A DNA stretch of 21,144 nucleotides, taken from a virus. Of the stretch, positions 3,147 to 9,115 are shown one piece after another (the first letter of the stretch is position 1; the number at the start of each line of letters is the position of its first letter). The notes below the pieces were generated by a model. That model was not told the DNA's origin and made no database searches. It saw only the letters and a program-made list of their open reading frames with translations. The stretch is from positions 1 to 21,144 of IMG/VR virus record IMGVR_UViG_3300042731_000228. The stretch is one strand, 5' to 3'. Made by a program: the position numbers and the translations under genes.

Positions 3147-3335
3147 TTAACTTTTGATAACTCGGCTGAAGATTCGGTATATGCCTTCAGGCAGATTATC
3201 AATATGAGCGTAAGCATCTTCCTGAGAAGAAAATGACTCGTGGTCATTTTCCTCTAGGTATAATTCCCAAGTACCATCGTTCATTAAGACAGTACCATCT
3301 TCTATATTTTCTATGTAATAGTTACTTGTTACCAT
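3147..3335 (-). CDS. Small protein of unknown function downstream of the collagen-like fibre (62 residues)
   Basis: A 62-residue acidic protein starting [17 protein letters not shown]. It has a beta-like N-terminal half with DGTVLMNDGTWELYLEEND around residues 13-31. Then comes an FSSQEDAYAHIDNLPEG segment that looks like one helix and a turn, and a final strand IYRIFSRV. No family is assigned with confidence. The ATG overlaps the fibre stop by one base (TAATG at 3335), so it is very likely translationally coupled to the fibre gene. Small genes directly after a fibre can be fibre-assembly chaperones or tip adaptors, which is only a possibility here. Gap-facing stop at 3147 precedes the AT-rich spacer. 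Confidence 0.65.
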   Translation of the reverse strand: MVTSNYYIENIEDGTVLMNDGTWELYLEENDHESFSSQEDAYAHIDNLPEGIYRIFSRVIKS

Positions 3336-5713
3336 TATACAATTCTTGTAATTGTGATTGCTCCGCCATCACCGTTAGTAGATGTTACCCCGTGGTTAAC
3401 AGCACCTGCGTGTAAGAATGTTTCAAAGAATAAAACATCTCCCGCAGCGACTGTAACAGCAAATGTTGACTGAGTAGTGCTTTTATGCCCATATGTATTA
3501 TATCGGAAGTACTGCAAGTTAGTACCACCCTGAATAGTAGAACCATTTAGTTTAGCAGAAGCACCAAATGTGCTTCGGTTAGCATAGTACGACTGCCAAT
3601 TTATATTCCAAGAGATGAGGTATGTACCTGCTTGGTTAAATACAATGTTTGATTCGCCTGAAGGCGAGGTAGATGTAGAGCCGTTGATTTCTTGAGTCGC
3701 TAAAACGATAGGCTGTCTACTTACCTCGTAAACCACACCTGTTTGGAATAGGTATTTATCAGGTCCATACATACTCCCGTTTGCCCCTGCAGGACCCTGT
3801 GGCCCTTGTGGCCCTGTACTCCCGCTCGGCCCCTGCGGCCCCGTGGCCCCAGCACTCCCTGCGGGACCCGCTGGCCCGATTGGACCCGTGTCCCCTGTGT
3901 CCCCTTTGGCCCCTGCGGGCCCCTGTGGACCCTGTGGACCGACACTCCCGTTGCTACCTGCAGGACCCTGCGGACCAATAAAGTCAGGGTAGTTTTCAGG
4001 TGTAAATTGTTCGGGTACAACATAACCTGCATTAGCGTGATTACCCCATCCGTAGGCAGTATTCCAATTTGTAGAGTTACCGCCTGTTGTAGTAATTTCT
4101 CCTGTAACACTTATACCTGTAGATGTAGTAGTTAGTTTTGTTGCGTTATCGTATCCTAATGTAAGACCTCCGTTTTCGGTAGACTTTAAAATCCACTCAC
4201 CGTTTTGGTCATCGTATAAACCACCTTCATTGCCATTAATCATTAATGAGATTATACCCTCATTAGAAGTGTTGGAAACTTGTAGCCCACCCCAAGATGA
4301 AGTAGAACTCTTAATCATTAACAAGTCTGCACGGTCGGTAGACTCAGTTAGTGTAGCACCACTACCAACTGCAAGTGATGTTACAGACAATGCAGAAGGT
4401 ATACTTGTTAAGTATCCTGCACCATTAGTCAATTGATTATTGTTTGTAGGAATATTACCATCTACAGTTGCAATAGCATCAAATACCTCAGTATCTATTC
4501 TTTGGTTTACTGCAGCAGCAGAACCTGCAGCATCGTATGTGTTTGCGGTAACGCTAAATGTCGTTCCGCTTAGTGTCAATCCCGTACCTGCTGAGTATGT
4601 TGTGTTTGTATCAGTAAATACTGCTCCTGAAGGTACAGGTGTTTTTACATTATCAAATGCCCAATTAGATGAGATTGATGTCGTTGTCGCTCCATTAACA
4701 GGAGTATCGTGAATACCTCTCCAAGTATTAGCATCCGAAGTAGTTACGCTAAATGTTGTGTTATCAGAGCGTGTGAAGGTTATTGTGTCGTTTGATACCG
4801 AAGCAGCCTTGATAGGGTTTACCGAAGCATCTAACTTTGTATCAATTGCAGGTAATACTTCCTCGTTAATACGAGCATCAACAACAGCCACGGCTGAACT
4901 TACTTCGGCATCAGTAGCGTATGAGGAAGGAATAGAAGTCAAGTATCTACCATCAAGGTCAACGGAGTTTCCGTTGCTTATAGTAAGAACGCCATTTGTT
5001 CCGTTCCAAGAAAGAGTCTGACTATCAGTTTCAGATGTAAGATATCCTGCATCAGCGTGATTACCCCAACTGTAAGCAGTCTTAAAGTTTTGGATGTTAG
5101 TCTTTGTTAAAGCCTCCCCATCCAATGTGAGTTGGTCACCCCTTAGATATGCAGTTTTTCTTGTAGACCATCCACCTGACCAATTCCCTGTGTGTGAATT
5201 AATCTCAAGACCTTGCTCTGCATTCAGGTAGATATATTCGTTAGTTTGTCCTGTAGCATAAGAGTGAGACTCACCTGCGTTTAAGACAAGTTGCTGTCCA
5301 TTACCCTTGATGTAAGCGTTAATGGTTAAAGCACCTGTTAAAGTTCCACCCGACAAAGGCAGGTAGTTGTGTGAGTGTGAGGGTAAAGATGTTAAGTACC
5401 CTGCATCTGCGTGGTTGCCCCAGGACCAAGCCTCTGCACCACGAGCAGAATCAGTAGCGGTCCCGTAAGTGCCTGACAAGTTGGGTATTCTTGCGGCATT
5501 AATAGTTCCTGAAGTGATTTTACTTGCATCAAGATTTGGAATACGAGAAGCACCAATAGAGCCACTTACAATTTTACCCGCATCAAAGTTGGGCATTCGT
5601 GAAGAACTGATTGTTCCGCTCGTGATTTTTGAAGCATCTAAATTAGGTACATCAGATGCAGCGATATTCATTGAACCTTCTACATCAACTCCATTAAGAA
5701 TCTTAATAGCCAT
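3335..5713 (-). CDS. Tail fibre protein with collagen-like stalk and possible C1q-like C-terminal head (792 residues)
   Basis: Probable host-recognition fibre. Domain order: a short N-terminal attachment segment (1-23); three 18-residue repeats of the form [12 protein letters not shown]..(A/S)RIP at 24-77; then repeats typical of fibre shafts, including two [12 protein letters not shown] copies (first at 98-109), a variant [10 protein letters not shown] before the collagen segment, [14 protein letters not shown], and a [14 protein letters not shown] segment. Residues 580-648 are 23 uninterrupted Gly-X-Y triplets rich in GPQGPAG, a collagen-like trimeric stalk. Residues 649-792 are a beta-rich C-terminal domain with [12 protein letters not shown] and a final [12 protein letters not shown]. 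The size and position recall C1q/TNF-like or BclA-like heads that follow collagen stalks; this fold match is an inference. The ATG follows a 63-base gap holding a terminator. DNA of the Gly-X-Y region is much more GC-rich than its neighbours. Confidence 0.85.
3770..3976 (-). repeat. Collagen-like Gly-X-Y repeat, 23 triplets
   Basis: Within the 792-residue fibre, 69 codons encode 23 perfect Gly-X-Y triplets ([15 protein letters not shown] and similar). The coding DNA has many near-identical nine-base units and is far richer in G and C than flanking DNA. It is a natural substrate for slippage or recombination that would change stalk length. Confidence 0.93.
5483..5644 (-). repeat. Three tandem 18-residue repeats at the fibre N-terminus
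   Basis: Residues 24-41, 42-59 and 60-77 of the 792-residue fibre align without gaps. All have the pattern N-(L/F)-D-A-(S/G)-K-I-(T/V)-S-G-(T/S)-I-x-x-(S/A)-R-(M/I)-P. A partial fourth copy (NIAASDVP) precedes them. Each unit is 54 bases. Confidence 0.9.
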
Positions 5714-5776: not shown

Positions 5777-6952
5777 TTATGCAGCCCCAACACCTGCAGC
5801 CAAGTAGTCTACGCCGTTTTCTAAGAACGCAAATACTAATCCGCTACCATCTTGGGTGATGTCAGTAAGTACAACTGAACCTGTGTTCAAATCATAAATC
5901 TGAACATTTACAAAACTATTGATTCCCTGTCCATTGAAGTCAATAGGAGTGTTTGCACCAGCACCTGTAACTTGAATTTGAGCAAATACAGGAATAGTTG
6001 GTTTGTTAGTTAGGTTGTTGTAGTTGCGGTAGTAAGCCGAAGACTGACCATCCAACAAATCTGCATCAAGACCTGAACCTGCACCATCAACTGTTTTAAT
6101 CTTAGCCAATACATCAGCAGCGGTGTAAGCAGAAGAATCCAACTTGTTACCGATTGCAGTAGTGATTGTGGTACTAAAGTTAGCATCATCACCGATTGCA
6201 GCAGCAAGTTCGTTCAATGTATCTAATGCAGCAGGAGCAGCAGCAACAAGGTTACTAATTTCAGTAGCGACATGAGTACGAGTAGCATAGTCGTTAAGTA
6301 CTTCGCTGTTTACTTTGCTGTCAAGTTCATCTTGTAGACCAATAACTTCACCAATTGGGTGTTGGTGAGCAGCAGGAGTAAAGGTAGTTGGAACACCTGT
6401 CAATGAAGAGTATGCCCCATTGAAATTAGAAGTACCTGCACCAATCAATGAGCGTACCTCTGCAGCAGTAATACCTGTAGTTAAAGCAGGTGCGCCTGAA
6501 TTGTTACGAATAGCAGGTTGGAAAGTAGCAGTTGCTCCTGCCTCAATGTTGGTTAACTTGTCATTTCGTTCAGTAGTGAAGTTAATCTCTGTAAGACCAC
6601 CATCACCAATACTATAAGTAGTATCAGTAAATACTGCGTTAGCAGGTACATTTGTCAATACTTGAGAATCATCAACCTTACCATTCAAGGCAGTTTGAAG
6701 ACCGCTTACATTGCTGATTGCGATAGTACCAATACTGATAACGCCTTCGCTTTCAGAAATCGTTGTACCATCAGCAGTTAATCCTACACGAACAAAGCCT
6801 GAGCCATTGTGTACGAATACAGCGTTTGCCGCTGTGTTAAAGAAAATCTGACCTGCAGTACCTGAAGAAGGAGCAGAAGCCAAATTTTGAAGAGAGAAAT
6901 TCTGTACTTCATTTCCCCCTAAATCTAAGTCAACTAGATATTTTAAAGCCAT
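5777..6952 (-). CDS. Tail fibre protein (391 residues)
   Basis: Probable tail fibre or fibre-shaft protein. It starts MALKYLVDLDLGGNEVQNF, a typical short attachment segment, then has shaft-like repeats rich in Gly, Asn, Thr and Ala: SNVSGLQTALNGKVD, LTNVPANAVFTDTTYS, a helical LDTLNELAAAIGDD segment, and ADLLDGQSSAYYRNYNNLTNKP. The last of these is a motif found in many phage tail fibres. The AVFTDT.TYS block also occurs in the 792-residue fibre, so the two genes share a module. The C-terminus from about residue 300 is a compact beta domain ending LENGVDYLAAGVGAA. The start at 6952 is preceded by an A-rich leader. The gene is followed by the TTGTAAATTC word and a strong terminator. No catalytic motif (lyase, peptidase) is visible. 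Confidence 0.83.
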   Translation of the reverse strand: MALKYLVDLDLGGNEVQNFSLQNLASAPSSGTAGQIFFNTAANAVFVHNGSGFVRVGLTADGTTISESEGVISIGTIAISNVSGLQTALNGKVDDSQVLTNVPANAVFTDTTYSIGDGGLTEINFTTERNDKLTNIEAGATATFQPAIRNNSGAPALTTGITAAEVRSLIGAGTSNFNGAYSSLTGVPTTFTPAAHQHPIGEVIGLQDELDSKVNSEVLNDYATRTHVATEISNLVAAAPAALDTLNELAAAIGDDANFSTTITTAIGNKLDSSAYTAADVLAKIKTVDGAGSGLDADLLDGQSSAYYRNYNNLTNKPTIPVFAQIQVTGAGANTPIDFNGQGINSFVNVQIYDLNTGSVVLTDITQDGSGLVFAFLENGVDYLAAGVGAA

Positions 6953-6970: not shown

Positions 6971-7327
6971 TTAATTAAGAAAAGCCTTTCCCTTAAAAGG
7001 GTATTTAAATCGGACAACAAGTACTGCATTGTCCAAGTACTCCACTTCGCCAACAACCTGAGTATTCGCAGAATCAACTACGCTTACTGATGGGTTCTTA
7101 CCAAGAGCGTGTTCTATAACCCATTCAGATGCCGTAACATTCTGGTGGTGTGTGTATGATGTTAGGGATTCCCCATTAACTCTAACATTAGAAGTAGATA
7201 CAGTAATAGGTAGGGCTGTACCATTACCATCGCTAAGTTGTACTTCGCCTGTAACTTCATTGCTGTCAATGGTCTTAATAAGACCTTTGTAGGTATCCTT
7301 CGGTTTATTTCCTGTTAGTGTAGCCAT
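6971..7327 (-). CDS. Small tail or fibre-associated structural protein (118 residues)
   Basis: It starts MATLTGNKPKDTYKGLIKT, an N-terminal segment common in short fibre or tail-tip proteins. A middle part has GEVQLSDGNGTALPI and VRVNGESLTSYTH. The C-terminal module from about residue 66 reads SEWVIEHALGKNPSVSVVDS, GEVEYLD and FKYPFKGKAFLN. The 'H.LGK.PSV.VVDS' module is a recurrent beta domain in phage tail and fibre proteins; that is family recollection, not a search. Its ATG follows the stop of the upstream 49-residue gene with no gap (TAAATG). It sits directly upstream of two fibre genes, so a baseplate-to-fibre adaptor or short fibre role is likely. Confidence 0.75.
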   Translation of the reverse strand: MATLTGNKPKDTYKGLIKTIDSNEVTGEVQLSDGNGTALPITVSTSNVRVNGESLTSYTHHQNVTASEWVIEHALGKNPSVSVVDSANTQVVGEVEYLDNAVLVVRFKYPFKGKAFLN

Positions 7328-7477
7328 TTATATCTCTTCTTCCCAAGTGTCGTTAATCATATCCCATCTCATATCATTTACATTCCAATACCTGTTATCA
7401 AACTCGTAAACACGCCCTGCAATAGGAGCCTGTCTCACGGATGTAGCCTGTATTGTTATGCCTAATGATAATAGCAT
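7328..7477 (-). CDS. Very small protein with a C-terminal W-rich motif (49 residues)
   Basis: Unrecognised. The reading frame can be opened upstream only by a TTG at 7513 inside the previous gene. I chose the ATG at 7477 because it overlaps the previous stop as TAATG, the arrangement used at nine other junctions here. The protein starts MLLSLGITIQATSVRQ and ends with W-x4-M-x-W-x2-I-N-D-x-W (7343-7387), which also ends the 84-residue protein encoded at 7740-7994. The shared ending suggests a common binding partner or a duplicated adaptor. Probable minor virion component. Confidence 0.6.
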   Translation of the reverse strand: MLLSLGITIQATSVRQAPIAGRVYEFDNRYWNVNDMRWDMINDTWEEEI

Positions 7478-7740
7478 TATCCAATGTACGCTAAAACTAC
7501 ACCTTGGTAGCAAGACACTTCGCTAAACTTTCCAAAAACGGTACTCCCTGTAGCCAAAACCTGACCTGTGAGAGAGTCACCAACTAAAGAAGTAGCGTTG
7601 ATACTAGCCTCCTGCAAACAAACAATAATTCGGTAAGTTTCCCCTTGAGGTGTCGTTTCATTAGCACCTAGTCTACGGAATCCAAAGTCACCCATTGATG
7701 CTTGGTAGTAGTTTCTATCTTTTGTTATATTATTCTCCAT
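7477..7740 (-). CDS. Small protein of unknown function (87 residues)
   Basis: Unrecognised. The preferred start is the ATG at 7740 (MENNITKDRNYYQASMGDFG), which overlaps the preceding stop as TAATG. A TTG four codons earlier is also open but less likely. The body is beta-like with TYRIIVCLQEA and a GDSLTGQVLATGSTVFGKF stretch. It contains two cysteines and no membrane segment. It lies between two small proteins that share a tryptophan-rich ending, so it is probably part of the same tail-tip or adaptor group. Confidence 0.62.
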   Translation of the reverse strand: MENNITKDRNYYQASMGDFGFRRLGANETTPQGETYRIIVCLQEASINATSLVGDSLTGQVLATGSTVFGKFSEVSCYQGVVLAYIG

Positions 7741-7994
7741 TATATATTCCAATAATCATTAATGGTTTCCCATTGCATATTAATCAATTCCCAATTTACC
7801 TGCCACCCACTTGATTGCTCAATAATAACATTTGAGTAGTATCCTGTTGGTCCTGTGAGGTAGTCCAATTTTCCAATGCTTTCTTGGATTGAATCTGCAT
7901 TGTACCCAATAGGACTAGAAGGGATGTAATCAAGAAAACCCTTGTCATATTGAGTAGAATCACTACTATATCCTTGCGTGAAAATTGCATACAT
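7740..7994 (-). CDS. Small protein with a C-terminal W-rich motif (84 residues)
   Basis: Unrecognised. It starts MYAIFTQGYSSDSTQYDKGF and ends WELINMQWETINDYWNI. This matches the ending of the 49-residue protein at 7328-7477 as W-x4-M-x-W-x2-I-N-D-x-W with no gaps. The middle part (IGYNADSIQESIGKLDYLTGPTG) looks like a short helix followed by a turn and resembles the short linker segments found in fibre proteins. TAATG overlaps join it to the genes on both sides. A small structural or adaptor role is likely but unproven. Confidence 0.62.
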   Translation of the reverse strand: MYAIFTQGYSSDSTQYDKGFLDYIPSSPIGYNADSIQESIGKLDYLTGPTGYYSNVIIEQSSGWQVNWELINMQWETINDYWNI

Positions 7995-8509
7995 TATGGT
8001 AATTGTATTACTCCTTCATCCTCAATAGCCAATGAAGCAATCCAACTTTGAGTGTTTAGTTCCACATCTACATATGAAAGTTCACCTCTTGTTGTACCGC
8101 TATTAGCAGTAAAATTCATATCAAGACCATCCATCCATCCGCTAAGAGTTACTGTACCGTTGTTGTGATACAACAAACAAACAATATCTCCTCTTCTAGA
8201 CATATAGTCTATCTTATTCATCTTTCTATCAATGATAGGTAACCTAACTACAATGTTTGTATTGATAACACCTAATCCATTGTTAATGGTTTTAGACTCA
8301 TTAAACGATGTTCTAGAGTCTTTTGGGTTATGCTCAAACACAACTGAGTCTTGCAACTCTAGTTGGGTGATTAATGTCTCATCAACAGGGTCAAGCGTAA
8401 TAGACAAGCCTCTTTGTAATCCTAGAACCACACGCTTAATACCCCCTGCATTATTAGTGTTGCAGTTAATATCAATGTCTTCTAGGAAAATACTACAATT
8501 GAAACTCAT
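7994..8509 (-). CDS. Paralogue of the preceding tube-like structural protein (171 residues)
   Basis: This protein resembles the 180-residue product of the gene immediately before it (8573-9115) along most of its length. Shared points are a GG(I/L)K(R/K)V motif near residue 22, a KD..(T/S).F.E(S/T)KT(I/V) segment near 63-75, and a GT...(S/V)GW..GL...........SGT.R segment near 118-141. The level of identity is low but the order and spacing are kept, which points to an old tandem duplication. Like its paralogue it is beta-rich with no signal peptide. I infer a tail-tube or tail-tip tube-like fold; head decoration is an alternative. It follows a terminator and ends in a TAATG overlap with the 84-residue gene, so it belongs with the small-protein and fibre group. 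Confidence 0.65.
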   Translation of the reverse strand: MSFNCSIFLEDIDINCNTNNAGGIKRVVLGLQRGLSITLDPVDETLITQLELQDSVVFEHNPKDSRTSFNESKTINNGLGVINTNIVVRLPIIDRKMNKIDYMSRRGDIVCLLYHNNGTVTLSGWMDGLDMNFTANSGTTRGELSYVDVELNTQSWIASLAIEDEGVIQLP

Positions 8510-8572: not shown

Positions 8573-9115
8573 TTATGCAATTACATCAGCCCATTCCGTA
8601 GCAGCAATGCTGTAAGAAAGGCTATCCTCTTCACCTGTAAGAGTGATTTGGTAGCGGTTCTTTTCAGAACGACCTGTTCCTGAGTTACCATCAACAGTTG
8701 AAGCGTACAATCCGTACTCCCAACCTACCATATGGTAAGTTCCTGCAGCAGTCTCAACAAAAGCAACCAACTCAGCAGCAGGTTTAGCGATATTGTTAAG
8801 AGCGTTACGGTGGTCTTCGCTCATTTTAGGAATCTCAATAGAGATAGTAGGTACTGAGGTTACAACGCCATCAGCAGAAACGGTTTTAGTTTCAGAGAAA
8901 ACTGAGAAACCATCTTTCAAATTGAACTGAATCTCAATTACATCGCCATCAGTATCCAAACCTGTAGTACTAGGATTAATAGTTACTACATCGTTTGCAA
9001 CACTAACAACGCTAACTAAGTCAGCCTTGTTACCAATGTATACTTTCTTCAAACCACCGATTCCGAGGTCATCACAAGAAAAAGTTACATCAGCAAGAGT
9101 GATATTACAAGCCAT
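8573..9115 (-). CDS. Probable major tail-tube-type structural protein (180 residues)
   Basis: Unnamed but recognisable as a structural protein. It starts MACNITLADVTFSCDDLGIG and has GGLKKVYIGNK at 20-30, SVFSETKTV at 71-79, ISIEIPKMSEDHRNAL at 91-106 and GTYHMVGWEYGL at 125-136, then a SGTGRSEKNRYQITLTGEE segment. The all-beta composition, the size, and placement directly after the capsid gene between two strong terminators suggest an abundant virion protein. The tail tube is the best guess; a head decoration protein is the main alternative. No contractile sheath gene accompanies it, which fits a siphovirus-like tail. A diverged paralogue follows. The ATG at 9115 has an A/T-rich leader. Confidence 0.68.
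   Translation of the reverse strand: MACNITLADVTFSCDDLGIGGLKKVYIGNKADLVSVVSVANDVVTINPSTTGLDTDGDVIEIQFNLKDGFSVFSETKTVSADGVVTSVPTISIEIPKMSEDHRNALNNIAKPAAELVAFVETAAGTYHMVGWEYGLYASTVDGNSGTGRSEKNRYQITLTGEEDSLSYSIAATEWADVIA

Follow-up and report, generated by a model that had tools for sequence, protein, structure and literature searches.

Why do two small phage proteins, encoded on either side of a tail-free gene, end in the same short tryptophan-rich peptide? The window, by which we mean the whole stretch of 21,144 bases analyzed here, is an IMG/VR virus record whose minus strand encodes a terminase fragment and a tape measure protein, and a 295-aa protein of the window has a weak virion-structural match. 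All genes relevant to the question lie on the minus strand, in a series that runs from two paralogues of 180 and 171 aa through proteins of 84, 87, 49 and 118 aa to fibre-like genes:

8573..9115, minus strand: 180-aa protein paralogous to the 171-aa one, sharing about 25% identity with the L048 homologue described below
7994..8509, minus strand: 171-aa protein, putative tail-tube fold by way of the L048 homologue, which is 67-68% identical and itself tailed
7740..7994, minus strand: 84-aa tailed protein, GY..(N/S)(A/S).Q...G.LDY repeats followed by the tail
7749..7793, minus strand: W-x6-W-x6-W tail at the C-terminus of the 84-aa protein, WELINMQWETINDYW
7477..7740, minus strand: 87-aa protein, tail-free, between the 84-aa and 49-aa genes
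7328..7477, minus strand: 49-aa tailed protein, its stop codon abutting the ATG of the 118-aa gene with zero gap
7343..7387, minus strand: W-x6-W-x6-W tail at the C-terminus of the 49-aa protein, WNVNDMRWDMINDTW
6971..7327, minus strand: 118-aa protein, fibre anchor domain at the N-terminus followed by a small C-terminal domain
7157..7327, minus strand: anchor domain, residues 1-57 of the 118-aa protein, putative binding partner of the tails
5777..6952, minus strand: 391-aa protein resembling a tail fibre, encoded downstream of the anchor gene
3335..5713, minus strand: 792-aa collagen-containing tail-fibre-like protein

The 84-aa protein ends in ...NWELINMQWETINDYWNI and the 49-aa protein in ...RYWNVNDMRWDMINDTWEEEI, with 2 and 4 residues, respectively, between motif and stop. 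The initial annotation had described a shared 15-residue motif, W-x4-M-x-W-x2-IND-x-W, at 7749-7793 and 7343-7387, interrupted by the 87-aa gene; the motif is true of both proteins at these positions, and the separating gene (7477-7740) has no such tail. It had also linked the ending to no named family, and searches of PHROGs and Pfam (E <= 1) and of NCBIfam (E <= 0.1) turned up nothing for either protein. The pattern itself was drawn too narrowly, as 69 distinct strict tails (defined below) have the W-x6-W-x6-W heptad as their core and IND lies outside it.

Absence of recurrence had been named as the outcome that should sink the idea; the tail instead recurs, in relatives as well as in unrelated phage proteins. 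Searches of IMG/VR retrieved related loci with the 84-aa (14 loci), 49-aa (25) and 171-aa (27) queries, and both W-x6-W-x6-W tails are present in 54 of 65 loci, one of which is the window itself and several of which share a contig. Two loci that cover only part of the region (L015 and L041) have no tail, nor do L059-L065, and L057 and L058 have one tail each, carried by a relative of the 171-aa protein. Members of the 84-aa family (in the window, L023 and L025-L027) contain a variable number of GY....Q...G.(L/V)DY repeats and range from 84 to ~125 residues.

A pattern scan of viral contigs that was blind to neighbouring genes (W-x2-I-N-x2-W-x2-I-N-x2-W) returned 80 stretches, and 56 of the 86 pattern matches in them fall 0-10 residues before a stop, across several protein families. 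Besides relatives of the 84-aa and 49-aa proteins, the tail ends proteins of a Cys-rich family (..RACLC..KCCDG..AQGIG..) and a hydrophobic, Gly-rich protein of 39 aa; the remaining matches are low-complexity sequence or frame noise. A looser pattern, for which 47 of the 100 viral matches listed lie near a stop, with real tails mixed with frame noise, brought in a family of tailed proteins with a basic helix. When the tails were removed from 98 tailed proteins, the bodies fell into 17 BLAST clusters at E < 1e-3; several of these are basic-helix clusters that may be one superfamily, and by eye we count about eight unrelated bodies. This clustering drew on an earlier anchor count (141 unique, 61 with strict and 37 with degenerate tails) that is superseded by the count of 183 anchors below.

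The initial annotation had read the motif as a docking peptide for a shared partner such as the baseplate or the base of the fibre. Recurrence favors a partner at the base of the fibre, as does the identity of the usual neighbour, a single type of fibre N-terminal domain; the binding event itself is something that we infer. This anchor domain begins M-x-T-L-x-G-x-x-P-(K/x)-D-T-Y-x-x-L-I-K-x-x-D-N..L-S-D-G-x-G-N or a close variant, and in the window it forms the N-terminus of the 118-aa protein. In all eight contigs that we read gene by gene, a tailed ORF lies immediately 5' of the anchor gene (at L308 the contig ends at the tailed ORF, and the anchor start there is listed as L495). Beyond the anchor domain, the remaining sequence differs widely in length, from under 120 residues to more than 1,000, as expected of fibres that share one base. 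Residues 53-118 of the window's 118-aa protein match four PHROGs of unknown function at E < 1e-11, and in three of them the match falls at the very C-terminus.

To quantify this neighbourhood, three scans with anchor alignments each kept 80 loci (of 457, 468 and 376 confirmed), giving a clean count of 239 loci and 183 unique anchors that are preceded by 200 nt or more; four of the 239 anchors were omitted for having less, and identical upstream stretches were counted once. A strict tail was defined as W-x6-W-x6-W plus 0-7 residues in an ORF ending between 150 nt upstream of the anchor and 30 nt inside it; a degenerate tail permits F or Y and a spacing of 6 or 7. By these definitions, 106 anchors are preceded by a strict tail, 35 by a degenerate tail and 42 by none, compared with 32 strict and 10 degenerate tails among 1322 control ORFs (other ORFs of at least 80 aa from the same loci, on both strands and including spurious ones). 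On sequence outside every locus retrieved earlier, strict tails precede 57 of the 134 anchors, degenerate ones precede 35 and 42 are tail-free, against 5 strict and 6 degenerate among 922 control ORFs. The Fisher p for this comparison is 1e-50 for strict tails and 7e-86 for strict and degenerate tails together, values that are only indicative because the sequences are related; the tailed fraction is biased upwards because genes found beside tails supplied the seeds of the anchor profile. In an earlier count over 1333 control ORFs from nearly the same loci, 31 of 32 strict matches were of the 84-aa type, located before an 87-aa gene in the same operon, and the 32nd was a tube-like protein with a tail, encoded ahead of a divergent anchor.

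The 84-aa type is usually followed by the 87-aa gene rather than by an anchor. In two loci (L409 and L411), a tailed relative with an 84-aa-type N-terminus sits directly 5' of the anchor, an arrangement that ties the 84-aa tail to the same partner as the other tails. Relatives of the 87-aa protein, judged by eye, also precede a tailed gene in L300, L277, L348 and L308.

Tails were found with 13 of 18 anchor clusters, and the other five clusters (33 anchors) have none at all; together with the 42 tail-free anchors among 134, this implies that an anchor can also be held in another way. In some tail-free clusters, as in loci L424, L428 and L418, a small W-containing ORF with the pattern MTI..W...YC...(W/F)G precedes the anchor and is a possible second kind of adaptor. 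In L435, L414, L399 and similar loci, tail-free anchors are preceded by a 166-171-aa protein with a conserved C-terminus, GW or SW and then two more residues (WVL, WNI, WML or WQL). No fusion of tail and anchor in one ORF was found among the fetched anchor loci. Near the tailed gene of a further locus (L576, 79-1910) are apparent GroEL and GroES genes.

We think it likely that virion proteins carry the three-tryptophan tail as a docking tag at their C-terminus, where it putatively binds the fibre anchor domain. The tail would form a short amphipathic helix, either inserted into the anchor or packed against it, the anchor probably being that of a fibre trimer, such that different body proteins (adaptors or tube subunits) could present one class of fibre whose distal end is free to change. 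A single anchor in the window would be served by two tailed adaptors, of 84 and 49 aa. We put forward more tentatively, and at somewhat less than even chances, the broader idea that the portable tag and its matching anchor constitute a general plug and socket that mounts interchangeable fibres on various parts of the virion, including the wall of the tail tube. Should this broader idea be true, fibres and their carriers would be exchangeable independently of each other across many uncultured phage lineages.

The tail also occurs on tube-like proteins, in two lineages of relatives. The homologue of the 171-aa protein in L048 is 197 aa long and ends in ..NRWSPNSITWSNNNINWS, and the relative in L057 and L058 ends in ..NLWIDASDNWNTTNLNW. 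The next gene in L048 and L057 starts MNL(T/N)N..I..TYGN.LT.GS..G....GTLQNGAGQ; we call its product a divergent anchor, which matches the anchor profile weakly (7.8 bits in L048 and 12.8 bits in L057) and begins 0 nt (L048) or 2 nt (L057) after the tailed ORF. In L057 and L058, two relatives of the 171-aa protein, one W-tailed and one tail-free, flank the divergent-anchor gene. An AlphaFold model of the L048 protein (L048:5001-5591) has a mean pLDDT of 67, with the tail below 50 and without predicted secondary structure. Foldseek alone gave no PDB match for this model at E <= 0.001 (best E 0.016); structural re-alignment gave Z scores of 10.2 to 8.2 over 94-132 residues, in keeping with a tail tube fold, and nearly all the matches listed are phage tube, neck or tip proteins, tubes of contractile injection systems or Hcp. 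From this model, the 171-aa family appears to adopt a tail-tube fold, and the main tube protein could be the 180-aa paralogue rather than the 171-aa protein.

These proteins weigh against a Tfa-like role for tailed proteins, as chaperones of fibre assembly or aids to trimerisation that are absent from the virion, an explanation that would suit their small size and the position of their genes beside fibre genes. A tail-tube-like protein should be part of the virion, so a tail on it (L048 and L057) favors a role in attachment, and the bodies are too diverse for one common chaperone function. We therefore regard a chaperone role as unlikely, at perhaps one chance in six.

The tail sequence itself is compatible with both docking and self-association. 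In the 69 distinct strict tails, all taken from upstream of anchors, the definition itself fixes W1, W8 and W15; position 4 is aliphatic in 72% and position 11 in 71%, mostly as I, position 12 is N in 67%, position 13 is D in 29 of 69 and position 2 is polar in every one. Tryptophan at 1, 8 and 15 with aliphatic residues at 4 and 11 gives the hydrophobic a/d pattern of a heptad, and the helical moment at 100 degrees is 0.353 compared with 0.265 when residues are shuffled around fixed tryptophans. These data fit a short amphipathic helix that places W at heptad a and I at heptad d; some tails (tube-like proteins, WDFRNNNWNSGNQTW) suit a helix poorly, and some have K, N or D at heptad d. The complex prediction that the initial annotation had suggested was made by joining the 49-aa and 118-aa proteins into one chain, with 24 alignment rows for AlphaFold, 13 of them paired across the stop. 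It produced a helix at residues 29-51, covering the tail, with a pLDDT of ~44, and a mean pLDDT of 61; no confident contact appeared with the single anchor copy in the model, the real partner probably being a trimer, and no PDB fold matched at E <= 0.001.

The same heptad spacing, raised helical moment and low-confidence helix could mean that the tail is a self-association module, a tryptophan-rich coiled coil that assembles copies of one protein into an oligomer or links the two tailed proteins to each other, and that its nearness to the anchor reflects no more than gene order. Such a module would leave unexplained why the tail persists beside the anchor through 17 body clusters and appears on a tube-like protein, and we consider it somewhat less probable than a chaperone role. 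The evidence for a partnership between tail and anchor is genetic neighbourhood throughout. It is conceivable, if improbable, that the gene block is conserved by descent and that the tail binds some other part of the virion, such as the baseplate hub, or the host surface; the two tails for one full anchor in the window would suit that explanation, but tail and anchor stay constant and paired while bodies and flanking genes differ.

Finally, many tailed genes stop within a few nt of the next ATG, as expected if the tail were a by-product of translation signals for the next gene (a ribosome site or coupling) in the 3' end, but this explanation is very improbable given that the stop-to-ATG distance ranges from a 4-nt overlap to a 47-nt gap, that the tryptophan codons are 21 nt apart and well upstream of the ATG, that other genes of the same loci lack the tail and that synonymous codons vary, with a pS of 0.52-0.60 in the tail. 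The tail pN/pS is 0.26 for the 84-aa type (26 distinct sequences), 0.33 for the 49-aa type (28) and 0.34 for the Cys-rich type (24), and these low ratios with variable synonymous sites indicate selection on the residues of the tail rather than on the DNA.

Beyond the viral contigs, tblastn against 50,697 isolated-phage records gave no convincing relative of the tube-like, 847-aa, tailed, anchor or 87-aa-relative queries. Nonlabens phage P12024L, in which one protein resembles the tube model, was considered and set aside, as it has neither an anchor nor a credible tail. In bacterial genomes, 20 of the 168 pattern matches listed lie no more than 10 residues from a stop, most of them where the DNA is a simple repeat, and no clear tailed phage gene is among the matches listed; the anchor profile matched 0 of 4 and 0 of 395 genomes, counts that carry little weight as they came without a positive control. 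Against PDB sequences, neither the anchor alignment nor the two tube alignments produced a significant match.

Fibre attachment in uncultured phages is mostly obscure because adaptors are tiny and unrelated in sequence. A 15-residue tag with a recognizable anchor would make fibre genes and their adaptors findable in metagenomes, allow them to be paired and account for a class of unnamed ORFs of 40-90 residues, and the 49- and 118-residue proteins offer a directly testable binding pair. Fibre adaptors as such are already known, and the W-tail tag is not named in the literature and databases that we searched. A weakly matching profile is PHROG 12650, a 58-aa family of unknown function, which one tailed protein resembles over residues 17-43 (profile 30-55 of 58) at an E of 0.012 that is not significant, in a stretch that spans most of its tail.

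With established tail tube proteins, the 171-aa family has a fold in common by way of its L048 homologue (Z 9.5 to lambda gpV, 9.7 to 80alpha and 9.3 to SPP1), and the L048 and L057 proteins add to that fold a C-terminal W-tail and a fibre-like gene next door. Designed tryptophan-rich coiled coils place W at heptad a positions, as the tail does; the tail, in contrast, is natural, only two heptads long and strictly C-terminal. The closest functional parallel may be LtfC of DT57C and T5, which, in the published account, is a separate protein that holds the fibre N-terminus and is essential for fibre attachment, forming a dodecameric collar around the LtfA N-termini through strand contacts (PMC10713586). 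The tailed gene adjoins a fibre gene in the manner of an LtfC-type adaptor, with a putative role in attachment. Whereas LtfC is one collar protein, in the phages considered here a heptad tail of 15 residues is carried by many unrelated proteins.
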